Below, piece by piece: positions 1,785 through 14,823 of a DNA stretch of 64,000 nt. Position numbers and translations under genes: made by a program. The stretch's first letter is position 1; each line of letters starts with the position of its first letter. The notes beneath the pieces are model-generated. The model saw nothing but the letters and a program-made list of their open reading frames with translations. It was not told the origin of the DNA and did no database searches. This DNA is from Parvibium lacunae (GTDB taxonomy: Bacteria; Pseudomonadota; Gammaproteobacteria; Burkholderiales; Burkholderiaceae_D): the NCBI RefSeq assembly GCF_003335215.1, contig NZ_QPGB01000001.1, forward strand, positions 248,001-312,000. Direction: 5' to 3'.

Positions 1785-4700
1785 ATGGGTTCTATTTCTG
1801 CCGTTTCTCGGGCATTGCCTTCATTTGATGCTTTTTGTCGTGCTCGTTGTGCCAGATTATCTGGCTTGGTCGCGAGTATATTTTCGATCGCTCTGGTGGG
1901 TTGTGGTGGTGGTGACAAGACAGTGGCCCAGCTAACTGGCGCTAGCGATTCATCATCGCAGGCAGCAATTCAAGCAATACGCTCAACTGAAAAGCATATC
2001 GCTGGCGCCTGGGACCCTGTTTTTGATATGTCGTTGATCCCAATCCACATGGTTTTGCAGCCTGATGGCCGGGTTATGTATTACGGTAGCGATTTAAATG
2101 GAAGCCAAACGGCGGCATATCGTTATGGAATCTGGAATCCGGCAAATGGAACTAGCAGTAACAGTCTGATGATTTTGCCGAATGGAACAGGCAACGATTT
2201 GTTTTGTAGTTCACAAACCGTTCTATTGGATGGCAAAACCTTAATTGTGGGTGGTGATGAAGCGAATCCCGATAGTAATGTCGCAAACCGATCGACCAAT
2301 CTGTTTAGTTTTTTAGATAATTCGCTGGTCAAGCAGAACGATTTGAATCGTTTGCGCTGGTATTCCTCGACCACCATGTTGTTGAATGGTGAGGTTTATA
2401 TTCAGGGTGGATCAGGCGGGCATGATCGTCCAGAGGTACGACAAACTGATGGAACGTATCGTTTGCTCAATGGTGTTGACACCTCCGCCTATGATGCAAC
2501 CTTTCCAAAAAATTGGCTTGCCCCTGATGGACGTGTATTTGGGGTAGTCGGCAATGGTTACATGTACTATGTCAACCCGACCGGTAATGGTGCTTTAACG
2601 GCAGCCGGCCAACTTCCCGCTGCGAATGCGGGCGCAGCTACTGGTGCTGCCATGTTCCGGCCAGGACGCATTCTCAAACTGTCGACCAACTCTCCAGCCG
2701 CAGCCATCATTGATATAAATAATGGCCAAGCGGCTGTCACGAACACCGAGGCTGTTTCGTCGATTCGTATTCACAGTGTGGCGACAGTCCTGGCCGATGG
2801 CCGGGTGCTGGTCAGCGGTGGGAGCAGTACCGACAACGTATTGAACACCGCGAATAATGCCGCGGAGGTCTGGGATCCTGTCAGTGGGCAATGGACGATT
2901 GGACCAGCCCAACAACTTGCACGCCTTTATCACGGCACCGCCTTGCTGCTGCCTGATGCGCGTGTTCTGGTGGCGGGTGGTGGGGCGCCTGGCCCGCTGA
3001 CTAACAAGAACGGCGAAATTTATACCCCTTCTTATCTCTATAATTCTCAGGGTGCCCTGGCACCACGGCCTACGATTACCACTGCACCAACCGTGGTTGA
3101 ACCGGGGCAAAGCTTTAATATTGAGACCAGTACAGCCAATTTGTCGCGAGTTAGTTTGGTGCGATTTGGTTCTGTTTCACACAGCTGGAACAGTGATCAG
3201 CGTTTTATTGATTTACCTTGGCGCAATAATGGGTCGCAGCGTTTTGCGCTACAAATGCCGGCACGGGCAGCAGATACCCCCCCAGGCTTTTATATGCTGT
3301 TTGCCTTTGATACTCAGGGTGTCCCCTCAGTCGCTAAGATTCTACGGGTCAACATGCCTGGCGCGCGCGATGCCGCGCGCAGCCCTGCAGTGAACAACAT
3401 AGCCAACCAACGCAGTGACACGGGTGCTGTCATCGATATCCAGCCAACCGCATCGAATCCGCTCGGGCGGACCTTGCGTTGGAGTGCCAGTGGATTACCG
3501 AATGGACTGGTTATTGATGCCAACACAGGAAAAATTACCGGTAGCCCAAGGCAGCCTGGGACATTCTTCGCCACCGTTGCGGTTGACGATGGCAGTTGGG
3601 TGGGCTCCAGTTCGTTCCTCTGGGAAGTTGCCCAAGGCACATTGGTCTTGCAGCCTGTGCTACCCGTTTCAGCAGCACTAAGTCAACAAGACTTGACCTT
3701 TACGGCGAATGCGATTGGTTCAAATGTTCGCTATCAGTGGAATTTTGGTGATGGCAGTCCCGTTAGCGCGTGGTCAACGAGCCGTACAATTCGCTACCGC
3801 TACAGTGCTCCCGGTGTATATGCCGTTACCGTAACGGCGATTGACGACCAGGGGCGGCCACAGACGCAAACTTTCTTGCAGACGGTTGCCCTGACAGCGA
3901 CACCCACTCGCCCGGCGCGTTCTTCGGCTTTGCTGTTCGAGCAACCGAGTACAGGGAATGCACGTTTGTGGGTTGCTAATCCCGATGCTAATACGGTCAG
4001 TGTTTTCGATGCAGTTACCCAAAATAAACTGGCTGAAATTGTCGTGGGCCAACAACCCGTCACCCTAACCAGGGATGCCACAGGACAAATTTGGGTCGCT
4101 AATCGCCAAAGTGATTCGCTCAGCATTATCAATCCAACCAGTTTGACGGTTAGCCAAACAATGAATCTGGCTTCTGGCTCCGGTCCCTATGGGATTCTTG
4201 CGACCCCGAATAACCCCAATTTAATCCACGTGGTACTCGAAGGCCGGGGACAATTATTGAGAATTGACGCAGCGAAGCGCTTGGTTGGGCAAACCGTCAA
4301 TCTTGGTTCCCAACCCCGCCATCTCGCAATAACGCACAACGGCAGCAAGCTTTATGTGTCACGCTTCATTACGCCCCCCTTGCCTGGTGAAGCAACCGCA
4401 ACAGTACAACCGAATGCGGGTGGCGTTGCGCGTGGTGGCGAAGTGGTGGTTTTGAATGCTAACTTGGCGATCACAAAAACCATGATATTGCGACATAGCG
4501 ATAAGGTTGATAGTGAAAACCAAGGGCGTGGAATTCCGAATTATCTCGGGGCAATGGCGATTTCGCCCGATGGTAGCCAAGCTTTTGTTCCCTCGAAGCA
4601 AGATAATATTCTGCGTGGAACCTTGCGCGATGGCAGCAACCTGAACTTCCAAAGCACTGTGCGCGCGATCAGTTCCCGTATTCTCCTGGCCTCTGAGGCA

Positions 4701-6977
4701 GAAGACTTGGCAGGCCGAATTGATCACGATAACGCCAGCCTGGCGAGTGCGGCAGCATTTGATCCTCGCGGGGTTTGGTTGTTTGTAGCGCTTGAGACTA
4801 GCCGAGAAATAGCGATCTTAAACGCACATAACCGAACACAATTACTGCGTATTGAAACGGATTTTGCGCCTCAAGCACTTGAAGTTTCCCCCGATGGCAA
4901 GCGTTTATACGTCAGCAATTTCATGGCCCGTAATGTAGGGGTATACGACCTTGTTCCCTTGCTAGAGCAAGGGCGGCTGGTCGCGCCTCTCTTGCAAACG
5001 CTGCCGACCGTTGGGAATGAGCTGTTACCCCCGCAAGTGTTGCGGGGTAAGCAACTTTTTTATGATGCCCGCGATCCACGCCTGGCTCGCGATCGTTACA
5101 TGAGCTGTGCCACTTGCCATAATGACGGTGGTCACGATGGCCGAACCTGGGATTTAACCGGGATGGGCGAAGGCTTGCGTAATACAATCAGTCTGCGCGG
5201 GCGTGCGGGGATGACCCACGGACGTCTACATTGGACCGGTAACTTTGACGAGGTACAAGACTTCGAGGGTCAAATTCGTGGCTTGGCTGGGGGCACCGGG
5301 TTAATGCCTGACGCCGCTTTTAATACGGGTACCCGCAGTCAACCTCTTGGCGATAAAAAAGCGGGGTTGAGCAGCGATCTAGACGCCCTGGCGGCCTATC
5401 TTGGGTCGCTCACGCAGTTTGGCAGCAGTCCTTTGCGTGCGGCTAATGGCCAACTCAGCAGTGATGCGCTAATTGGTCGCAATTTATTTAATGCTCAATG
5501 TATTCAGTGTCATAGCGGCAGTATTGCGACCGATAGCCCTTCTGGAAAATTACATAAGTTGGCCACGATCAAAGCGAGCAGTGGCAAGCGCTTGGGGTCA
5601 ACGCTAACGGGCTTGGATACCCCGACGCTTCGTGATGTCTGGGCAACGGCACCCTATCTTCATGATGGCTCTGCAGCTACCTTGGAGGCGGCGATTCAAG
5701 CGCACCAGACAGGGTTGGATGCGACGAAACTGCGGCAACTAGCCAGTTACTTGCGTGAGGGGGGGCTGGATATGCTCCCATCCGCAGTTCAACTTGGCGC
5801 CAGCAATCTGAGTTTGGTGGGGGCTGCCGCTGTGCGTGCTGATGGCGCTATACAAATCACACCGAACAGTACAGCGCAGGGTGGCGCAGCTTGGTCCACT
5901 CTAGGGTGGTCAACTACTCAGGCCTTTACCACTAGTTTCGACTTTGTTTTACAAGGAGCCGCAAGACAGGCTGATGGCATAGCCCTGGTGATGCACGGCA
6001 GTGGGAACAACTTTTTGGGTGGACTAGGTGGCTGCATTGGTGTGTGTAATTTACCAAATTGGTCTGGCTTAGTCATTCAAACATGGGAAAACAATCGCGT
6101 GGGTCTCGCGACGAATACCCAGATTGCTAAACCTGCTGGCTTTGATCTCGGTAATGCCGCCAATATAAGTGGTCGGGCAACTTTGGCTTACAACCCCGTT
6201 ACCAAGCTGCTAACCAGTTACGTTACGTTGACCAGTAATGGCGTTAGCCGAACCTTAGTAGATGCAATGACGATTGATTTGACTGCGAAGTTTGGCCAAC
6301 GAGTCACCGTTGGCATTACAGGCGCGACCGGTGGCGCCAGTGCAGAACAGGTAATTCGAAATTGGACCGCTGATTTTGCCGAGCCAATCAATAATAGCTG
6401 GGTAAAACTAAACTGGGATGCACAGGCGCAGACCAACGGTAGCCTTTTATTAACCCCGAATACGCAAAATAAAACGGGGACGGCATGGGCCACACAACCG
6501 TTGTCAAGTAGCCAGAGTTTCACCACAGAGCTGGATTTTTCCTTACGTGGTACTGCTCGTCAAGCGGATGGCCTAGCGCTGGTACTGCAAAATACGGGTA
6601 CCGATTTCGTTGGTATGAATGGCGGCTGTCTGGGTGTGTGCAACTTACCTAATTGGATTGGAGCCGTTGTGCAAACCTGGGACAATAACCGATTAGGTTT
6701 TGCAAGTAATGCTCAAGCCGCCAAGTCAGCTGGTGTTGATTTGGGCAATCATGCGCTTATCCAGGGGCATTTAATTGTTCGTTACGATGCAAGCCGCAAG
6801 CTTCTAGAGATGACAGGAACTCTTGTAACCGATGGCGTTGTTCGCCCAATTAACGATACGCTGTCGATTGATCTCAGCGCTCGTTTCGGCCCTCGCTTTT
6901 TTATTGGGGTTGGCGCGGCAACAGGCGGTGCAGCAGCCGAGCAAATAGTCAGCCAGTGGGTGATACGACAACGCTAA
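1785..6977 (+). CDS. Giant lipoprotein: copper-radical oxidase, beta-propeller, di-haem cytochrome and twin lectin-like domains
   Basis: 1730 residues. An N-terminal export signal ends in a lipobox (LVGC, Cys40), so it is probably anchored in a membrane. Residues 72-425 are a kelch propeller and 428-525 a DUF1929-type domain, together the galactose oxidase fold. All five copper-radical residues align: Cys141 (LFCSS), Tyr193 (RWYSS), Tyr382-His383 (RLYHG) and His466 (VSHSW). Then come an Ig-like putative domain (about 532-616), a PKD domain (618-705, YQWNFGDGS), a YVTN-type propeller (725-1060), a MauG/di-haem peroxidase-like region with CATCH (1108-1112) and CIQCH (1239-1243), and two homologous L-type lectin-like modules (1336-1532 and 1535-1730, each with an ADG[IL]ALV and a CxGVCNLPNW block). 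Copper-radical oxidases turn alcohols or aldehydes into products plus H2O2, which a di-haem peroxidase could consume; coupling on one chain is my inference. Substrate unknown; lectin modules suggest a carbohydrate or cell-surface target. Confidence 0.82.
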   Translation: MGSISAVSRALPSFDAFCRARCARLSGLVASIFSIALVGCGGGDKTVAQLTGASDSSSQAAIQAIRSTEKHIAGAWDPVFDMSLIPIHMVLQPDGRVMYYGSDLNGSQTAAYRYGIWNPANGTSSNSLMILPNGTGNDLFCSSQTVLLDGKTLIVGGDEANPDSNVANRSTNLFSFLDNSLVKQNDLNRLRWYSSTTMLLNGEVYIQGGSGGHDRPEVRQTDGTYRLLNGVDTSAYDATFPKNWLAPDGRVFGVVGNGYMYYVNPTGNGALTAAGQLPAANAGAATGAAMFRPGRILKLSTNSPAAAIIDINNGQAAVTNTEAVSSIRIHSVATVLADGRVLVSGGSSTDNVLNTANNAAEVWDPVSGQWTIGPAQQLARLYHGTALLLPDARVLVAGGGAPGPLTNKNGEIYTPSYLYNSQGALAPRPTITTAPTVVEPGQSFNIETSTANLSRVSLVRFGSVSHSWNSDQRFIDLPWRNNGSQRFALQMPARAADTPPGFYMLFAFDTQGVPSVAKILRVNMPGARDAARSPAVNNIANQRSDTGAVIDIQPTASNPLGRTLRWSASGLPNGLVIDANTGKITGSPRQPGTFFATVAVDDGSWVGSSSFLWEVAQGTLVLQPVLPVSAALSQQDLTFTANAIGSNVRYQWNFGDGSPVSAWSTSRTIRYRYSAPGVYAVTVTAIDDQGRPQTQTFLQTVALTATPTRPARSSALLFEQPSTGNARLWVANPDANTVSVFDAVTQNKLAEIVVGQQPVTLTRDATGQIWVANRQSDSLSIINPTSLTVSQTMNLASGSGPYGILATPNNPNLIHVVLEGRGQLLRIDAAKRLVGQTVNLGSQPRHLAITHNGSKLYVSRFITPPLPGEATATVQPNAGGVARGGEVVVLNANLAITKTMILRHSDKVDSENQGRGIPNYLGAMAISPDGSQAFVPSKQDNILRGTLRDGSNLNFQSTVRAISSRILLASEAEDLAGRIDHDNASLASAAAFDPRGVWLFVALETSREIAILNAHNRTQLLRIETDFAPQALEVSPDGKRLYVSNFMARNVGVYDLVPLLEQGRLVAPLLQTLPTVGNELLPPQVLRGKQLFYDARDPRLARDRYMSCATCHNDGGHDGRTWDLTGMGEGLRNTISLRGRAGMTHGRLHWTGNFDEVQDFEGQIRGLAGGTGLMPDAAFNTGTRSQPLGDKKAGLSSDLDALAAYLGSLTQFGSSPLRAANGQLSSDALIGRNLFNAQCIQCHSGSIATDSPSGKLHKLATIKASSGKRLGSTLTGLDTPTLRDVWATAPYLHDGSAATLEAAIQAHQTGLDATKLRQLASYLREGGLDMLPSAVQLGASNLSLVGAAAVRADGAIQITPNSTAQGGAAWSTLGWSTTQAFTTSFDFVLQGAARQADGIALVMHGSGNNFLGGLGGCIGVCNLPNWSGLVIQTWENNRVGLATNTQIAKPAGFDLGNAANISGRATLAYNPVTKLLTSYVTLTSNGVSRTLVDAMTIDLTAKFGQRVTVGITGATGGASAEQVIRNWTADFAEPINNSWVKLNWDAQAQTNGSLLLTPNTQNKTGTAWATQPLSSSQSFTTELDFSLRGTARQADGLALVLQNTGTDFVGMNGGCLGVCNLPNWIGAVVQTWDNNRLGFASNAQAAKSAGVDLGNHALIQGHLIVRYDASRKLLEMTGTLVTDGVVRPINDTLSIDLSARFGPRFFIGVGAATGGAAAEQIVSQWVIRQR

Positions 6978-6995
6978 CCTCGTTACGCTTCATAC

Positions 6996-7031
6996 CAGCA
7001 GCCGCCGGATTTCCGGCGGCTGCTGTCATTT
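6996..7031 (+). terminator. Strong hairpin terminator after the giant lipoprotein
   Basis: A perfect 14-base stem (6996-7009 with 7012-7025, core GCCGCCGGA/TCCGGCGGC) with a two-base tip is followed by TCATTTT. It lies 18 bases after the stop and closes the transcript before the RND efflux genes. Confidence 0.85.
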
Positions 7032-7184
7032 TGGCACTCGAAAAATCTGAAATGGATACGGCCCGGTGTGAATAGAATATCTTTTCATTGAGCATAGGCG
7101 GAATAAAACCATTCGCGGTTTCGTTGCGTATGCCCCAAGCAGGTAAGATATGGTTTCAATTTACGGGAAACGCTTGGGCATTTT

Positions 7185-8666
7185 ATGTTTCGCTTCGGTG
7201 TATTGATCTGGATTCTGTTGCTCTCTGGTTGCCAGAGTCCTCGCGGTTTACTAACAACGCTGGGGCCTGACTACAAGCCCACTTCGGTCTCCACACCAAA
7301 AGAATGGCAGGTACCGCCACTACCACACAGCGGTTCTGTTGCCAGCTTAAAGGATTGGTGGAGCCAGTTTCGTGATCCACTCCTAATCTCCTTCATATCA
7401 GAGGCACAGGCAGTGAGCAGCAACGTCGCCGATGCCCAGGCCCTGATTGTGCGCGCCCGCGCTAACGCTGTTGTCGCAGAGGCTAAGCCTGTCCCCGCCT
7501 TAAATCTTACTGCTGATGCCAATCGCTCGGCCTTTAGTTTTGGTGGTCCAGTGACTTACCGCAGTTTGACCTCGATTGGTTTGCAAAGTAGCTGGGAAAT
7601 TGATTTGTTTGGGGGCTTGGCGCGTGAGCGTGAGGCGGCACTGGCTGCACTACAATCAGCCCAAGCGAACTGGCACGCTGCGCGGGTTGCTATTGCCGTT
7701 GAGGTAGCCACTGCCTATTTCAATTATCGCTACTGCCAAACTCAGATCATTCTGTTGCAGCAGGAACGAGACGCACAGGAACGTATCGTTCAGAGTCTAA
7801 CGGAGGCGGTTAAAGTTGGCTTGCAGCCAGCCGCTGTGGCAAGTTTGGCTCAAGCTAAACTGGCAGAGCTGCAACGCACCCTGACCGCACGCGCCACAGA
7901 TTGTGACGTTGCAATAAAAGGTCTTGTTGCACTCACTGCACAAGACGAGCCAACTTTGCGTCGTCAGCTCGCCGTGCAGTTGCCAGTAGCAACTGTCGCA
8001 CAGTTACCTGCTCCCCCGACATTTGTTTTGCCTACCTTGCCAGCGGAATTACTGAATCAACGTCCGGATTTATTTATGGCTGAGAGAGCTGTGGCGCAGG
8101 CCAGCGCTGCGATTGGCATTGAATCTGCTCGTTGGTATCCTCGGCTGAGTTTAACGGGTTCGATTACGCCAACCCGACAAAGTATTAATGATGGCCCTGT
8201 CAGCAATGTCAGAACGTGGTCGGTTGGACCTTCTCTGTTGTTACCATTAATCCAAGGTGGGCGACGAAGTGCAAACCTAGCGGCCGCACAGGCAGAGTAT
8301 GAAGCGGCCAAAGCAGCATATGTCAGTAAAGCGAGGCAGGCGGTGCGTGAAGTAGAAGAAGCCATGCTACGTGTCCAATCTGCGCAGCAAGAGTCAGCCT
8401 ATTTAGTGCAGGCTTACCAAGCTGTGCAAGAGAATATGACTGCCGTGACAACACGAGAGCAGGCGGGCTTCGCGAACCGGATTGAGTTACAAGACGCCCG
8501 GCGCAGCCTCTTGCAAGCAGAGCAAGCTTGGTTACAGGTTAAACACGAACAAATCAATGCATGGGTCAGTCTCTATCGTGCTTTAGGCGGTGGGTGGCAG
8601 CAGGATTCTCTAGCGTTGAACACAGACTACAGATTGAGCTCTAGTGCTCCACGCACACCACAGTAA
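7185..8666 (+). CDS. RND efflux outer membrane factor, NodT/OprM family lipoprotein
   Basis: 493 residues. The start has a short signal with lipobox LLSGC, giving a lipidated outer-membrane channel. Two homologous outer-membrane-efflux repeats are visible, with the family marks ATAYFNYR, LNQRPDLFMAERAVAQASAAIGIESARWYPRLSLTGS and a C-terminal coiled-coil hairpin (about residues 365-440). The family forms trimeric TolC-like tunnels through the outer membrane and periplasm. It is the first gene of a three-gene unit with the adaptor (48 bases downstream) and the inner-membrane pump, so it very likely supplies the exit duct for that pump. A usual length for the family. Confidence 0.92.
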   Translation: MFRFGVLIWILLLSGCQSPRGLLTTLGPDYKPTSVSTPKEWQVPPLPHSGSVASLKDWWSQFRDPLLISFISEAQAVSSNVADAQALIVRARANAVVAEAKPVPALNLTADANRSAFSFGGPVTYRSLTSIGLQSSWEIDLFGGLAREREAALAALQSAQANWHAARVAIAVEVATAYFNYRYCQTQIILLQQERDAQERIVQSLTEAVKVGLQPAAVASLAQAKLAELQRTLTARATDCDVAIKGLVALTAQDEPTLRRQLAVQLPVATVAQLPAPPTFVLPTLPAELLNQRPDLFMAERAVAQASAAIGIESARWYPRLSLTGSITPTRQSINDGPVSNVRTWSVGPSLLLPLIQGGRRSANLAAAQAEYEAAKAAYVSKARQAVREVEEAMLRVQSAQQESAYLVQAYQAVQENMTAVTTREQAGFANRIELQDARRSLLQAEQAWLQVKHEQINAWVSLYRALGGGWQQDSLALNTDYRLSSSAPRTPQ

Positions 8667-8714
8667 TACTGCTGATATAGGCATTTAGAACAGACAGATG
8701 TAACAAGGTAAATC

Positions 8715-9914
8715 ATGATCGCGAGAACTAAACGCAATTTAAAAATAGCTGGCATAGTGATTCAATGCAGTCATTTAACTATCCCTGCGGCTTACCTGCT
8801 GCCACTGACTGTTATGAGTGGTATCGTAGTAACGCATGAGAGTCAAGCGCAAACCCCGCCTGCACGACCTGCCCTTACCGTGACCGTAGTCCAGCCGCGC
8901 ATCCAGCGTATTCCGTTTAGCTTACAAGCGAATGGCAGCGTAGCGGCCTGGCAAGAGGCGATCATTGGCGCGGAAGTCAATGGTTTACGCCTCGCTGAAG
9001 TATTGGTTAATGTTGGCGATACCGTCCGCCGTGGGCAAGTGCTGGCTACCTTTGCGGCTGAAACGGTAGAGGCTGAGGTCGCTCAGGCCAAAGCCAATGT
9101 TGCTGAAGCCGATGCAACATGGCAAGAAGCACAGGCAAATGCCGAACGGGCTCGCCGCATTGCTGACAGTGGTGCGCTCAGTACACAGCAAATAGCGCAA
9201 TACCAAACCGCCGCACAAACGGCGCAAGCCCGATTGGCCGCTGCTCAGGCACAGTTACAAAATCAGCTACTTCGGCAGCGGCATACCCGCGTGCTCGCGA
9301 GTGATGATGGCGTGATCTCTGCACGGAGCGCGACAGCAGGGGCGGTCATCGCCCCTGGGCAAGAATTATTCCGCTTGATTCGGCAGCAGCGTTTAGAGTG
9401 GCGCGCCGAGGTTACGGCCAGTGAATTAGCCCGACTCAAAGTGGGGCAGCGTGTAAAAGTCCAAGTCGGGGCGCTGTCGCCTCTTACCGGACGGGTGCGG
9501 ATGATCGCCCCCACGGTCGATCCGCAAACCCGCAATGCGCTTGTGTATGTTGACCTGCCGGGCGCGATGTCGCAGGGGATTAAGCCCGGTATGTTTGCGC
9601 GCGGTGAGTTTTTACTTGGCGACAGTGACGCATTAACCTTGCCGCAAAGTGCGGTTGCCCTGCGGGATGGGTTTAGCTACGTCTTTAAATTACAAGCAAA
9701 CAACCGAGTGACGTTGGTCAAGGTCCAAACCGGTCGTCGGCTTGTCAATGAGCCAGGCAAAGAAACTAATAAGGAAACGGATAGCGCGATTGAGATATTG
9801 CAAGGGGTACAGCCAGGCGACAGCATCGTGGCCAGTGGTGCAGCCTTTTTGGCCGATGGCGATACCGTTAAAGTGGTTGCCCCTCCGGCGGCGCCAAGCT
9901 CGTCGGCAAGGTGA
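8715..9914 (+). CDS. RND efflux periplasmic adaptor (membrane fusion protein)
   Basis: 399 residues. The N-terminus has a hydrophobic segment ending near SQAQTPP, compatible with a signal peptide. A biotinyl-lipoyl-like half (GAEVNGLRLAEVLVNVGDTVRRGQVLATF, about residues 78-110) is followed by an Ala/Gln-rich alpha-hairpin (about 110-185) and the second lipoyl half (DDGVISARSATAGAVIAPGQELFRL). Beta-barrel and membrane-proximal domains complete the MFP fold. The adaptor links the pump encoded just downstream to the outer-membrane factor upstream. The stop is six bases before the pump start. Substrate cannot be inferred from the sequence. Confidence 0.93.
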   Translation: MIARTKRNLKIAGIVIQCSHLTIPAAYLLPLTVMSGIVVTHESQAQTPPARPALTVTVVQPRIQRIPFSLQANGSVAAWQEAIIGAEVNGLRLAEVLVNVGDTVRRGQVLATFAAETVEAEVAQAKANVAEADATWQEAQANAERARRIADSGALSTQQIAQYQTAAQTAQARLAAAQAQLQNQLLRQRHTRVLASDDGVISARSATAGAVIAPGQELFRLIRQQRLEWRAEVTASELARLKVGQRVKVQVGALSPLTGRVRMIAPTVDPQTRNALVYVDLPGAMSQGIKPGMFARGEFLLGDSDALTLPQSAVALRDGFSYVFKLQANNRVTLVKVQTGRRLVNEPGKETNKETDSAIEILQGVQPGDSIVASGAAFLADGDTVKVVAPPAAPSSSAR

Positions 9915-9920
9915 TCGACC

Positions 9921-12900
9921 ATGACAACCCCGATTCACACTGCCGTTACTCCAGCGCCAGAGACAACCATGAATATCTCCGCCTGGTGTATCAAAAACCC
10001 GATTCCAGCCCTGATGCTGTTTGTCTTGCTGACCTTTGGCGGCATGCTCAGCTTCAAGGCAATGAAAATTCAGAATTTCCCCGATCTGGATTTGCCGACG
10101 GTCACCGTCACCGCTTCTTTACCCGGCGCCTCACCAGCGCAACTGGAAAATGATGTCGCGCGTAAAATTGAAAACTCCTTGGCAACCCTGCAAGGGTTAA
10201 AGCATATCTACACCAAGGTGCAGGATGGCGGGGTGACACTCACCGCCGAGTTCCGGCTTGAGAAGCCCGTGCAAGAGGCGGTAGATGATGTGCGTTCGGC
10301 TGTCAGTCGTGTGCGTGCCGATTTACCCGGCGATCTGCGCGATCCAATTATCAACAAACTCGATTTAGCGGGAGCGCCCGTGCTGGCCTTTACGGTCGCC
10401 TCCTCGCGCATGGATGAAGAAGCGCTCTCTTGGTTTGTCGATGACACCATCACCAAACAACTCCTCACGGTTAAGGGCGTTGGTGCGGTTAACCGGGTCG
10501 GGGGCGTGAATCGTGAAATCAGTATCGCGCTCGATCCGCTCAAATTACAGGCGTTAGGGGTCAGTGCGGCCGAAATCTCACGCCAGCTACGCCAAGTGCA
10601 GCAAGAAAGCGCGGGCGGTCGAACCGACTTGGGGCAAGGCGAGCAGCCAGTCAGAACCCTGGCAACTGTGCAAACAGCGGCAGAGCTGGCGGCAATCAGT
10701 TTATCCATCACTGGCGGTAATGGGCCGGGCCGGCGGATTCGCCTCGATGAAATTGCAACCGTCACAGATACAACAGCCGAGCCACGCTCGGTAGCGCTGT
10801 TGAATGGGCAGCCCGTTGTCGGTTTTGAGGTTACCCGCAGTCGTGGCGCGAGCGAGGTCGATGTGGGCGCGGGCGTCGAAAAAGTGTTAAAAAGCTTGCG
10901 CGACCAACACCCCGATATTGAGGTTACCCAGGCCTTTGATTTTGTCACCCCAGTGGCTGAAGAGTTTCGCGGCTCAATGAGTTTACTTTATGAAGGGGCT
11001 GTTTTAGCTGTCATCGTTGTCTGGCTATTTTTACGTGACTGGCGGGCCACCTTTGTCTCTGCCGTTGCCTTGCCGTTGTCGGTTATCCCCGCGTTTATCG
11101 GTATGGCTTACTTTGGGTTTTCGATCAATGTCGTCACCCTACTTGCCCTCTCTCTGGTGATCGGTATTTTGGTCGACGATGCGATTGTTGAGGTCGAAAA
11201 TATTGTCCGCCATTTGCGCATGGGAAAGTCACCCTATCAAGCTGCGCTAGAAGCGGCGGATGAAATCGGCTTAGCAGTTATCGCAACCACCTTTACGCTG
11301 ATCGCCGTTTTTTTGCCGACGGCATTTATGAGCGGCATCGCTGGCAAGTTTTTCAAGCAGTTTGGTTGGACAGCGGCGCTGGCCGTGTTTGCTTCCCTCG
11401 TCGTGGCGCGTATGTTAACGCCAATGATGGCAGCCTACCTGCTCAAGCCTACCGCGAGCCATGTGCCAGCGACGGGTCGTTTGATGCAGGGCTACCTAAA
11501 GGCCGCTGCCTGGTGTCTCGACCATCGTTGGTTAACGATGCTTGGCGCTGGCTTATTTTTTATCGGCTCGATTTTACTGATTCCGTTACTGCCGACGGGC
11601 TTTATCCCCCCTGACGACAATTCACAAACACAAGTCCACTTAGAGTTACCGCCTGGCTCAACACTGGCGCAAACCCAAGCCGCTGCCGAGTCTGCGCGCG
11701 CTCTGGTGCACCAAGTTAAGTATGTAGAGAGTGTTTACACCACCATTGGTGGCGGCAGTGCAGGGAGCGACCCCTTTGCCCCTGCCGGGGCCAGTGAAGT
11801 CCGCAAAGCCACCCTAACCATTATTTTGGCTGATCGGCGTCAACGCCTGGTCCGCAAGCAAGTCACCGAGCAAGAAATCCGCCAACAGCTTCAAGCTTTA
11901 CCGGGTGTCCGCACCAAAGTCGGTTTGGGCGGCTCTGGTGAAAAATATATCCTCGTTTTGCGTGGCGACGACCCCGTGGCACTCAGCACTGCCGCGCGGG
12001 CGGTTGAGAAAGACTTACGAACCATTCCGGGTTTAGGCAGCATTGCGTCCAGCGCCGCGCTGATTCGGCCAGAAATCGCTGTCCGCCCCGACTTTTCTCG
12101 GGCCGCAGATTTAGGGGTAACCACGGCCAGCTTGGCAGAAACGCTCCGCATTGCAACAGTAGGTGACTACGATGTGGCACTGCCAAAATTGAATCTCTCG
12201 CAGAGACAAGTTCCGGTCGTCGTTCGGCTCGACAAGCAAGCCCGCCAAGATTTGCGTATTTTGGAGCGCCTGACCGTGCCCAGTAGCAAAGGCAGCGCAG
12301 TCATGATCAATCAGGTCGCCGATCTCAGCCTCGCCAGCGGCCCGGCCGTGATCGACCGCTATGACCGTGCGCGTAACATCAACTTCGAAATTGAATTATC
12401 CGGGGTGCCGCTAGGCGAGGTTACCAAAGCGGTACAACAGTTACCTAGCATTCAAAATCTGCCCGCTGGCGTTAAACAAATTGAAATCGGTGATGCGGAG
12501 GTCATGGGCGAACTATTCGCCAGTTTCGGGCTGGCGATGCTGACCGGTGTCTTGTGCATTTACATAGTACTGGTTTTATTGTTCAAAGATTTCTTGCAGC
12601 CGATTACCATTCTCGCCGCCTTACCGTTATCGCTAGGTGGCGCGTTTGTTGCGCTTTTGGTCGCGGGCAAAAGCTTCTCCATGCCATCGCTGATTGGCTT
12701 GATCATGCTGATGGGCATTGCGACCAAAAACTCAATTTTGTTGGTTGAGTATGCGATTGTGGCCCGTCGCCAAGGCATGAATCGGCTCGATGCGCTGCTC
12801 GATGCATGCCACAAGCGGGCGCAACCGATTGTCATGACGACGATTGCGATGGGCGCGGGCATGCTCCCTATCGCGATTGGCTGGGGCATTGCAGACCCCT

Positions 12901-13067
12901 CATTTCGCAGCCCGATGGCGATTGCGGTGATCGGCGGGCTGATTACCTCAACTTTCCTGAGCCTGCTAGTGATTCCCGTGGTTTATACCTGGGTTGATGA
13001 CGTGGAAAACTGGTTGTTGAAGTGGCGGCGGCGCTGGCAAAAAGCTGCGCCTCCTGTCACCGTCTGA
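9921..13067 (+). CDS. RND efflux pump, HAE-1-like inner membrane permease
   Basis: 1048 residues, the normal size of AcrB/MexB-like pumps. Twelve membrane helices are expected, with two large periplasmic loops. The proton-relay aspartates are present in TM4 (GILVDDAIVEVENIVRHL), and the family start MNISAWCIKNPIPALMLF lies 16 residues in. The upstream ATG at 9921 is used because AAGGTGA precedes it at good spacing, whereas the ATG at 9969 lacks such a site; an in-frame start at 9969 remains possible. The pump takes hydrophobic or amphiphilic compounds from the periplasm and inner membrane and drives them through the adaptor and outer-membrane factor encoded upstream, powered by proton influx. 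No adjacent regulator gene is seen. It converges with phoH on the other strand with only 25 bases between stops. Confidence 0.94.
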   Translation: MTTPIHTAVTPAPETTMNISAWCIKNPIPALMLFVLLTFGGMLSFKAMKIQNFPDLDLPTVTVTASLPGASPAQLENDVARKIENSLATLQGLKHIYTKVQDGGVTLTAEFRLEKPVQEAVDDVRSAVSRVRADLPGDLRDPIINKLDLAGAPVLAFTVASSRMDEEALSWFVDDTITKQLLTVKGVGAVNRVGGVNREISIALDPLKLQALGVSAAEISRQLRQVQQESAGGRTDLGQGEQPVRTLATVQTAAELAAISLSITGGNGPGRRIRLDEIATVTDTTAEPRSVALLNGQPVVGFEVTRSRGASEVDVGAGVEKVLKSLRDQHPDIEVTQAFDFVTPVAEEFRGSMSLLYEGAVLAVIVVWLFLRDWRATFVSAVALPLSVIPAFIGMAYFGFSINVVTLLALSLVIGILVDDAIVEVENIVRHLRMGKSPYQAALEAADEIGLAVIATTFTLIAVFLPTAFMSGIAGKFFKQFGWTAALAVFASLVVARMLTPMMAAYLLKPTASHVPATGRLMQGYLKAAAWCLDHRWLTMLGAGLFFIGSILLIPLLPTGFIPPDDNSQTQVHLELPPGSTLAQTQAAAESARALVHQVKYVESVYTTIGGGSAGSDPFAPAGASEVRKATLTIILADRRQRLVRKQVTEQEIRQQLQALPGVRTKVGLGGSGEKYILVLRGDDPVALSTAARAVEKDLRTIPGLGSIASSAALIRPEIAVRPDFSRAADLGVTTASLAETLRIATVGDYDVALPKLNLSQRQVPVVVRLDKQARQDLRILERLTVPSSKGSAVMINQVADLSLASGPAVIDRYDRARNINFEIELSGVPLGEVTKAVQQLPSIQNLPAGVKQIEIGDAEVMGELFASFGLAMLTGVLCIYIVLVLLFKDFLQPITILAALPLSLGGAFVALLVAGKSFSMPSLIGLIMLMGIATKNSILLVEYAIVARRQGMNRLDALLDACHKRAQPIVMTTIAMGAGMLPIAIGWGIADPSFRSPMAIAVIGGLITSTFLSLLVIPVVYTWVDDVENWLLKWRRRWQKAAPPVTV

Positions 13068-13092
13068 CTACTCAGCGCAGCACAATCGAGCA

Positions 13093-14823
13093 CTACAGAA
13101 TTTCTGCCGCAAAGTCGGCCAAGCGCGAACGCTCGCCACGTTGTAAGGTGACATGCCCGCTGTGATCCCAGCCTTTGAAGCGGTCCACCACATACGTCAA
13201 GCCGGAGGAGCCTTCGGTGAGGTAGGGCGTATCAATCTGCGCGATATTCCCTAGGCACACCACTTTCGTGCCGGGGCCAGCGCGGGTGATCAGCGTTTTC
13301 ATTTGTTTGGGGGTTAAGTTCTGCGCTTCGTCGATGATCAGGAACTTATTGACGAAGGTGCGGCCACGCATGAAGTTAAGCGACTTGATACGAATTTTGG
13401 CTTTGATCAGATCCGTTGTGGCAGCACGACCCCATTCGCCAGCGCTGGCATCGGTTTTATTGAGGATTTCCAGGTTGTCTTCCAATGCACCCATCCACGG
13501 GGCCATTTTCTCTTCTTCGGTACCGGGTAAGAAACCAATGTCTTCCCCAACGGGCACCGTGACACGGGTCATAATGATTTCACTGTAAGCCTTGCTTTCC
13601 ATGATCTGGGCGAGGCCTGCGGCCAGTGCCATTAATGTTTTACCGGTACCAGCTTGACCGAGCATAGAGACAAAATCGCAGTCCGGGTCCATCAGCATAT
13701 TCAGCGCGAAATTTTGTTCACGGTTACGTGCAGTGAGGCCCCATACGGCATTTTTATGATGGGTGTAGTCACGCAGCGTTTTTAGTACTGCCGTTTTCCC
13801 ATTTAGCTCTTTGACCTGAGCATAAAATGGGGTGCCGGTTTCGAGATAGATAAACTGATTCAGCACCATGCTGGGTACCTGCGGACCCGTTAACCGATAG
13901 TAGGTATAGCCGCCTTGCTGCCAGGACTCCATGCCTTTGCCATGCTTATCCCAGAAGTTTTCTGGCAGGCTAAGAATACCGGTGTACAACAAGTCAGAAT
14001 CTTCCAGCACTTGGTCGTTAAAGTAATCTTCTGCCGCCAAGCCTAAGGCACGCGCTTTAATGCGCATGTTAATGTCTTTGGACACCAGCACCACTGGCCG
14101 TTGTGGCTTATCTTCTTGCAGCGCACGCACAACCGAGAGAATTTGATTATCACCCTTGCCCAGAGGGAGGGTGGTTGGGAGCGTGTTCGCCAGCACGTGT
14201 GTTTGCAAATACAGCCGGCCCAATGCATCTTTATTGCCAAGCGCATTCAGTGCAATGCCAGCATCAATATCCGGCTCGCTGGCAACCAGCGAATCTAAAC
14301 TCCGGCTGGCTTGACGGGCATTACGTGCGACTTCTGACATCCCTTTTTTATGCCCATCCAACTCTTCCAAGGTGGTCATTGGAATAAACACATCATGCTC
14401 TTCGAATCGGAACAGGGAAGAAGGGTCATGCATCAGGACGTTCGTATCAAGCACAAACAGTTTGCGAATCGTATCGACCGCTTTTTGAGGTTGCGGGTTT
14501 TTCGGCGTTTTTGGCGTCTTGGGTGGGTTAAGCGTCTGCCCTTGGGGAGGAATCAGATTTGCATTGGCTGCGGATGGCGTTGTTCCCGGCACATTACTGC
14601 TGCGGCTGGCGGCGGGGGCGGCAATCGGTGCGAGCGGTTGCGCTGTGGTCGCTCGTGTCTTCTCTTGCAGTTTTGGGCTGACCAAGGCTGCCGTTTGCCC
14701 ACCTGTTTTTGCTGCGGTTTTACCTTTTTTCTCCTGCACTGGCGGGGTTAGTTTTTTGGCTTCTAACCGTTCATCCAAATGAATTAAGGTCGCAGGTTTG
14801 GTAGGGGCTTTGGGTAGCGGCAT
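13093..14823 (-). CDS. PhoH-family ATPase with N-terminal PIN domain
   Basis: 576 residues. Residues 1-118 are Pro/Ala/Thr/Lys-rich and probably disordered. A PIN ribonuclease domain follows (about 122-260; KLFVLDTNVLMHDP with Asp126, then TLEELDGHKKG). The C-terminal half is the PhoH ATPase with Walker A GQAGTGKT near residue 388, Walker B FLIIDEAQNLTP and a CLGNIAQID sensor stretch. PIN-PhoH proteins are ATP-dependent RNA helicase/ribonuclease candidates; in actinobacteria one is tied to a toxin-antitoxin unit, but here it stands alone beside a peroxiredoxin gene. The unusually long low-complexity N-terminus is a feature of this copy. RNA targets are unknown. Confidence 0.9.
   Translation of the reverse strand: MPLPKAPTKPATLIHLDERLEAKKLTPPVQEKKGKTAAKTGGQTAALVSPKLQEKTRATTAQPLAPIAAPAASRSSNVPGTTPSAANANLIPPQGQTLNPPKTPKTPKNPQPQKAVDTIRKLFVLDTNVLMHDPSSLFRFEEHDVFIPMTTLEELDGHKKGMSEVARNARQASRSLDSLVASEPDIDAGIALNALGNKDALGRLYLQTHVLANTLPTTLPLGKGDNQILSVVRALQEDKPQRPVVLVSKDINMRIKARALGLAAEDYFNDQVLEDSDLLYTGILSLPENFWDKHGKGMESWQQGGYTYYRLTGPQVPSMVLNQFIYLETGTPFYAQVKELNGKTAVLKTLRDYTHHKNAVWGLTARNREQNFALNMLMDPDCDFVSMLGQAGTGKTLMALAAGLAQIMESKAYSEIIMTRVTVPVGEDIGFLPGTEEEKMAPWMGALEDNLEILNKTDASAGEWGRAATTDLIKAKIRIKSLNFMRGRTFVNKFLIIDEAQNLTPKQMKTLITRAGPGTKVVCLGNIAQIDTPYLTEGSSGLTYVVDRFKGWDHSGHVTLQRGERSRLADFAAEIL

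Follow-up and report, generated by a model that had tools for sequence, protein, structure and literature searches.

An intact open reading frame of Parvibium lacunae, 1785-6977 (+), encodes a protein of 1730 aa in which a copper-radical oxidase (CRO), a di-haem cytochrome c module and two lectin domains are joined in one chain. Positions refer to the window, the whole stretch of 64,000 nucleotides that was analyzed. We tentatively read this protein as a secreted, probably lipid-anchored, glycan-targeted CRO with its own haem partner for activation or re-oxidation and for peroxide handling, a reading held at slightly less than even confidence. A preliminary description of this DNA had named no known enzyme with such a domain order, and none was found in the open-access literature; likewise, no description of a CRO/di-haem fusion was found there (subscription papers and preprints lay outside this scope). 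A plasmid-borne homologue is annotated merely as a discoidin domain-containing protein.

Domain organization of the fused protein

The Pfam matches followed the order kelch, GO-like E-set, He_PIG, PKD, YNCE, CCP_MauG, RoxA-like cytochrome c, and two L-type lectin stretches. The scores were 76.5 bits for the GO-like E-set (PF09118, cut-off 25), 54 bits for PKD, 27.5 bits for YNCE (cut-off 27.1), 35.9 bits for CCP_MauG (cut-off 25.6), and 110 bits for the L-type lectin family PF18483 over two stretches (cut-off 78.3). A Glyoxal_oxid_N match to the same frame fell slightly under its cut-off. The domains were assigned as follows:

1785..1904 (+), predicted signal peptide with lipobox LVGC and lipid-bearing Cys40 (from the sequence)
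1977..3350 (+), CRO domain (AA5-like), kelch propeller plus GO-like E-set, residues 65-522 (Pfam, alignment with solved galactose oxidase)
3384..3629 (+), He_PIG Ig-like spacer, residues 534-615 (Pfam)
3681..3881 (+), PKD domain, residues 633-699 (Pfam; found in 46 of 46 homologue middle regions scanned)
3915..4979 (+), YncE/YVTN-type beta-propeller, residues 711-1065 (Pfam, NCBIfam, AlphaFold2, Foldseek)
4980..5777 (+), di-haem cytochrome c module, residues 1066-1331 (Pfam, structure-database matches)
5793..6368 (+), L-type (legume-like) lectin domain 1, boundaries approximate (PF18483, PF00139)
6393..6962 (+), L-type lectin domain 2, residues 1537-1726 (PF18483, PF00139)

This order, together with the LVGC signal peptide, bears out the earlier proposal that oxidase, di-haem module, and lectins form one secreted chain. 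The LVGC motif at the end of the signal peptide (Cys40) is consistent with a lipoprotein. By a crude test, 51 of 76 fused homologues were lipobox positive, and most of the remaining ones carried another signal-like segment. A frameshift or chance artefact was ruled out, as the frame is intact and the architecture is conserved in homologues; the copper ligands are invariant in 76-78 fused homologues and both CxxCH motifs are present in 88 of 88 homologues, which argues that the fusion did not arise by chance.

The carbohydrate targeting suggested earlier agrees with the C-terminal tails of the family, which carry PA14 (28 of 55), F5/8C (6), ricin (3), and legume lectin (3) domains as well as CBM6, CBM35, CBM60, and jacalin domains. 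Across the fused family, the PKD domain is constant and the tails interchange among carbohydrate-binding domains. Both lectins of the window (5793-6962) keep the ADG motif of legume lectins. The stretch that usually reads EFDTW and binds metal reads VIQTW in one and VVQTW in the other; metal and sugar binding may therefore differ.

Copper-radical oxidase domain

Residues 57-522 aligned end to end with galactose oxidase 9g8h (E 2e-51) with five ligands in register, and the residue numbers that the preliminary description had given for these five copper-radical positions proved exact. The features of AA5 enzymes are present, namely the Cys-Tyr pair, the second Tyr, and the two His in the galactose oxidase register, with a GO-like E-set after the kelch propeller. 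The key residues and their conservation among fused homologues were as follows:

2205..2207 (+), Cys141, partner in the Tyr-Cys cofactor (kept in 76 of 76 where present)
2361..2363 (+), Tyr193, equatorial ligand, expected to form the Tyr-Cys cofactor (77 of 77 where present)
2928..2933 (+), Tyr382 (axial) and His383 (equatorial), copper ligands (both 78 of 78)
3180..3182 (+), His466, copper ligand (78 of 78)

Judged from homology to solved enzymes, the copper ligands would meet in the folded domain, and we infer copper-radical chemistry at this site. The domain thus shares the kelch propeller and E-set, the Tyr-Cys pair, and every copper ligand with galactose oxidase (AA5; 9g8h, 1gof), but it is fused to a haem module and its clade is without the Trp290/Arg330 pair, which is a signature of galactose oxidase (PMC11267884). 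In the window clade, the position of this galactose 6-oxidase (AA5_2) signature shows Gly at 290 and no Arg at 330; by the GGSW register, the Trp290 position falls in a shortened loop near residue 210, where the alignment is less sure for the window. Galactose is therefore probably not the substrate of the window enzyme. Trp290 is nearly constant in clade D, and Arg330 occurs in 13 of its members. A hint, and no more, of an aldehyde or small alcohol substrate comes from RWY at the Tyr193 position and from the subthreshold Glyoxal_oxid_N match. The domain did not reach the NCBIfam cut-off for GlxA (NF052501), scoring 120 of 800 bits.

In a CRO tree, the fused domains fell into several clades, with stand-alone CROs interspersed. 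Well-supported branches of this quick tree (SH-aLRT support only) forced at least three changes between the fused and stand-alone states.

Propeller and di-haem module

AlphaFold2 modeled the propeller and the di-haem part as one confident body (pLDDT 90, pTM 0.91). In Foldseek searches with this model, an archaeal YVTN propeller ranked first and hydrazine synthase beta (5c2v_B) second. The di-haem part alone matched hydrazine synthase gamma first and then Shewanella BccP; this separate model was of moderate confidence (pLDDT 76, pTM 0.73) and served the fold match only. A search of solved structures matched residues ~1082-1306 to di-haem peroxidases and hydrazine synthase gamma. The haem module is thus closest to hydrazine synthase beta/gamma and then to bacterial cytochrome c peroxidases (BCCPs).

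Hydrazine synthase (5c2v), which is among the top fold matches, shares the succession of a seven-bladed propeller and a di-haem CCP-like unit. Unlike that enzyme, the window protein has no alpha subunit counterpart, no Cys lies near the position of the third haem-binding residue, Cys165, and gamma-His144 is replaced by Trp. The module also missed the hydrazine synthase cut-offs of NCBIfam (57 of 1250 and 53 of 625 bits). A 2025 study reported Trp in place of gamma-His144 in non-anammox homologues of hydrazine synthase beta/gamma (PMC12758564), a group that the window module fits in this residue.

The earlier placement of two CxxCH motifs at 1108-1112 and 1239-1243 was exact. Profile alignment of the module with BCCPs (hhalign, probability 99.9%) matched Trp1150, Gln1163, His1307, and Leu1173 to the BCCP positions of the inter-haem Trp, distal Gln, axial Met, and catalytic Glu, respectively. 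Conservation was assessed in 88 module homologues:

5106..5120 (+), haem 1 site CATCH, residues 1108-1112, putative open catalytic haem (CxxCH in 88 of 88)
5232..5234 (+), Trp1150, at the inter-haem Trp of BCCP/MauG (88 of 88; profile alignment)
5271..5273 (+), Gln1163, aligned to the distal Gln of BCCP (87 of 88; profile alignment)
5301..5303 (+), Leu1173, where BCCP has its catalytic Glu (86 of 88 homologues have Leu; profile alignment)
5499..5513 (+), haem 2 site CIQCH, residues 1239-1243 (CxxCH in 88 of 88)
5703..5705 (+), His1307, where haem 2 has its axial Met in BCCP and its Tyr in MauG (83 of 88)

The module accordingly resembles bacterial di-haem cytochrome c peroxidase, MauG, and MbnH in its fold, two CxxCH motifs, inter-haem Trp, and distal Gln, but it differs from them in its attachment to a propeller and a CRO and at two residues. 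Haem 2 of the window protein has neither the axial Met of BCCP nor the Tyr of MauG, His1307 standing there, and the profile alignment placed Leu1173 where the distal pocket of BCCP has its catalytic Glu. The loop corresponding to the His-bearing loop of BCCP contains no His that could act as the removable distal ligand. From these residues, haem 1 appears to be open and electronically linked through the Trp to haem 2, which is probably bis-His. With a His as the axial ligand of haem 2, which is also the situation in MauG Y294H, bis-Fe(IV) chemistry of the MauG type may be blocked.

The view that the module has the residues for a peroxide reaction was thus upheld for Trp1150 and Gln1163 and failed at the catalytic Glu position. 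Since Leu1173 stands where BCCP and MauG have their catalytic Glu, the textbook mechanism of O-O cleavage is not supported. The acids E1156, D1159, and E1161, called invariant (Glu1156 is kept in 88 of 88 homologues and Glu1161 in 87 of 88), lie near Leu1173 in the sequence and could take the place of this Glu. Use of peroxide by the haem module is plausible, and cleavage by the textbook route is not guaranteed.

Extent of the fused family

The propeller/di-haem alignment was scanned over ~85,000 species genomes and gave at least 548 relatives, of which the best 80 were kept. A CRO was on the same chain in nearly all of these 80 that were not cut by a contig end; since this selection favours window-like proteins, two unselected genome samples were added. 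The genome survey proposed in the preliminary description found the architecture in several classes and two phyla: a CRO and a di-haem module share one chain in 79 ORFs (including the window, earlier loci, and a few locus duplicates) from Beta-, Gamma-, and Alphaproteobacteria and Verrucomicrobiota. These 79 ORFs led us to reject the idea of an oddity unique to the window genome. The titles of the relatives included many Burkholderiales, Steroidobacter, Leucothrix, Methylophilaceae, Methylobrevis, and Verrucomicrobiota.

Among 300 genomes of the order, 8 had the module, 12 a CRO, and 5 both (P 2e-6), and among 398 genomes of the phylum the counts were 3 (2 of them fused), 9, and 2 (P 0.001), both P values being inflated by genome relatedness and by the window's own genome. 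The 8 genomes of the first sample comprised 2 with the fusion, 3 of one genus with separate genes, and 3 of another genus with the module and no CRO detected. The architecture is thus rare per genome but recurrent. In a module tree, the window clade stayed together. The window genome has one CRO and one CCP_MauG-type match.

Several loci departed from the common arrangement. In the genus with separate genes (L021/L106-L108 in genome G043, and genomes G173 and G328), a module protein of 735-864 aa accompanies 2-3 CROs encoded by separate genes in each genome, which is a split form of the fused pair. In L020 (ORF 5314-9276), the module follows LVIVD repeats, Big_5, and PKD without a CRO; in two further genomes of that genus (G183 and G279), the module was present and no CRO was detected. 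The 2568-aa product of ORF 5764-13470 of Rivibacter subsaxonicus (L036) contains one CRO and two propeller/di-haem modules with four CxxCH motifs. One homologue (L029) is split into two reading frames. Among the best 80, the loci that lacked a CRO were genes starting at the end of a contig. Six apparent CRO-less homologues (L053, L054, L058, L074, L083, and L095) were rejected as such, as their ORFs begin at a contig end. Distant module relatives (29-32% identity) were also found on IMG/VR contigs filed as viral (L102-L104), which are more likely cellular DNA.

Linkage to Sco and cytochrome c genes

A gene for the copper chaperone Sco1/SenC lay downstream on the same strand within 2 kb in 31 of 65 loci, compared with 5 of 79 upstream. 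Clade D had it downstream in 22 of 26 loci, and 21 loci of this clade also had a monohaem cytochrome c gene. The window clade had Sco in only 3 of 18 loci; in the window, neither Sco nor a monohaem cytochrome c gene lies alongside ORF 1785-6977, and the single Sco of this genome is located elsewhere. When neighbouring ORFs were clustered all against all, a noisy comparison that included overlapping frames, the Sco/cytochrome c group was the only one widely shared.

Proposed mechanism and alternative explanations

In the proposed mechanism, the CRO domain would oxidize an alcohol or aldehyde group and produce H2O2, while the lectins would keep the enzyme on its polysaccharide. The di-haem module, with its open haem 1, probably bis-His haem 2, and bridging Trp, would be a one-electron redox partner that generates or restores the Tyr-Cys radical (activation or maturation) and may take up the H2O2 made by the adjacent CRO, and haem 2 would exchange electrons with a cytochrome c. 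The domain order, the conserved metal and haem ligands, the recurrent fusion, and the Sco linkage in relatives were observed; how the haems are ligated, which way electrons move, the reaction with peroxide, and the substrate are inferred in this scheme.

Three known systems combine a CRO with a haem peroxidase. Maturation of Streptomyces GlxA requires Sco and the haem peroxidase DtpA under copper scarcity (PMC4736821); in a fungal tandem pair, the haem peroxidase activates the copper-radical alcohol oxidase, as EPR showed in the absence of substrate (PMC9770985); and systems with lignin peroxidase or horseradish peroxidase restore the activity of glyoxal oxidase (PMC10928124). Known haem peroxidases thus activate CROs, beyond merely consuming their peroxide. 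The GlxA system, in which a CRO needs a haem peroxidase and Sco to mature, parallels the arrangement proposed here and has an extracellular glycan setting as well, but GlxA, DtpA, and Sco are separate proteins, and DtpA is a DyP-type b-haem enzyme, whereas the window has a c-type di-haem module. All members of this trio (oxidase, haem protein, and Sco) occur in the fused family, Sco often, with oxidase and haem part fused. The fungal pairs (tandem peroxidase and alcohol oxidase, lignin peroxidase and glyoxal oxidase) likewise match a CRO with an activating haem peroxidase; unlike the window protein, they are separate proteins, their haem peroxidases have another fold, and their chains contain no propeller/di-haem unit or lectin. 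These three systems, and the family's own oxidase, haem protein, and frequent Sco, favour activation or re-oxidation of the Tyr-Cys site with peroxide handling; the invariant copper ligands of the fused proteins, the recurrence of the pair on one chain or in one genome, the retained Trp1150 and Gln1163, and the interchangeable carbohydrate-binding tails also speak for the proposed mechanism. Against it stand Leu1173 at the catalytic Glu position, the His on haem 2, the window's lack of an adjacent Sco or cytochrome c gene, and modules that lack a CRO and either follow LVIVD repeats or stand on their own. The narrower claim of a self-activating CRO, in which the attached module makes or restores the radical in the same chain, is possible but leans to the doubtful side.

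The module might instead act purely as a cytochrome c peroxidase: with cell-derived electrons it would turn H2O2 from the CRO into water and so protect enzyme, cell surface, and substrate, while taking no part in CRO activation. The above-threshold CCP_MauG match, the BCCPs among its best structural matches, the monohaem cytochrome c genes after 21 loci, and the fused protein being the single CCP_MauG-type match in the window genome all fit this explanation, but hydrazine synthase gamma is the best fold match, the catalytic Glu is missing, and haem 2 with His instead of Met is expected to have a lower potential; we consider it unlikely. Electrons could also pass directly from the copper site to the haems and then, by way of a cytochrome c, into the respiratory chain, so that O2 would be partly replaced and little H2O2 formed. 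Such a dehydrogenase, for which cellobiose dehydrogenase is a flavin/haem analogue, agrees with two haems sharing a chain with the copper site, the downstream cytochrome c gene of clade D, and nitrate respiration genes in the window genome. It is nevertheless improbable: to our knowledge, the known CROs are two-electron oxidases that use O2, and with the two sites separated by the Ig-like, PKD, and propeller domains, a short path is uncertain. Least credible to us is a scaffold for two independent catalysts, in which the propeller/di-haem unit performs its own hydrazine-synthase-like or RoxA-like chemistry on another substrate and shares only the targeting. Its similarity to hydrazine synthase beta/gamma and RoxA-like proteins and the modules without a CRO, for example with LVIVD and Big_5 and in genomes with no detected CRO, speak for this, but the module is strongly and repeatedly linked to CROs and keeps neither the third Cys nor gamma-His144 specific to hydrazine synthase.

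In the test tube, the peroxidase that accompanies a CRO is usually added by hand. With the oxidase and haem module in one chain, the question of how a CRO gains and keeps its radical in nature becomes testable through domain deletions in a single protein, and the fused family may have built into one chain what fungi and Streptomyces achieve with oxidase-plus-peroxidase pairs. If activation within the chain holds, a self-activating CRO would show at the protein level how such oxidases can stay active in nature; the bacterial family concerned swaps its glycan-binding tails, and many of its members would receive their copper from Sco. The fused protein would also be a bacterial bi-catalyst ready for use in oxidizing glycans or aldehydes, with no need to add a peroxidase.

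Other genes around the fused loci

In the window, a FecR-like protein is encoded upstream (481-1653) and a complete RND efflux operon downstream (7185-13067). Except for one TolC-like match, they had no counterparts beside the homologues, and no operon is therefore claimed. The region 35276-56120 (-) encodes NarG/NarH respiratory nitrate reductase, a NarX/NarQ-like sensor kinase, and an anaerobic ribonucleotide reductase, a gene content from which the organism is probably a facultative anaerobe. The plasmid homologue L017 (CP099607.1 178853-199547) is surrounded by genes for the degradation of gallate and protocatechuate, and in L022-L024, which hold the closest relatives of the window protein, a homogentisate-dioxygenase-like gene lies downstream by our reading of the sequence; these neighbours point to a possible link of the fused family to aromatic compounds.
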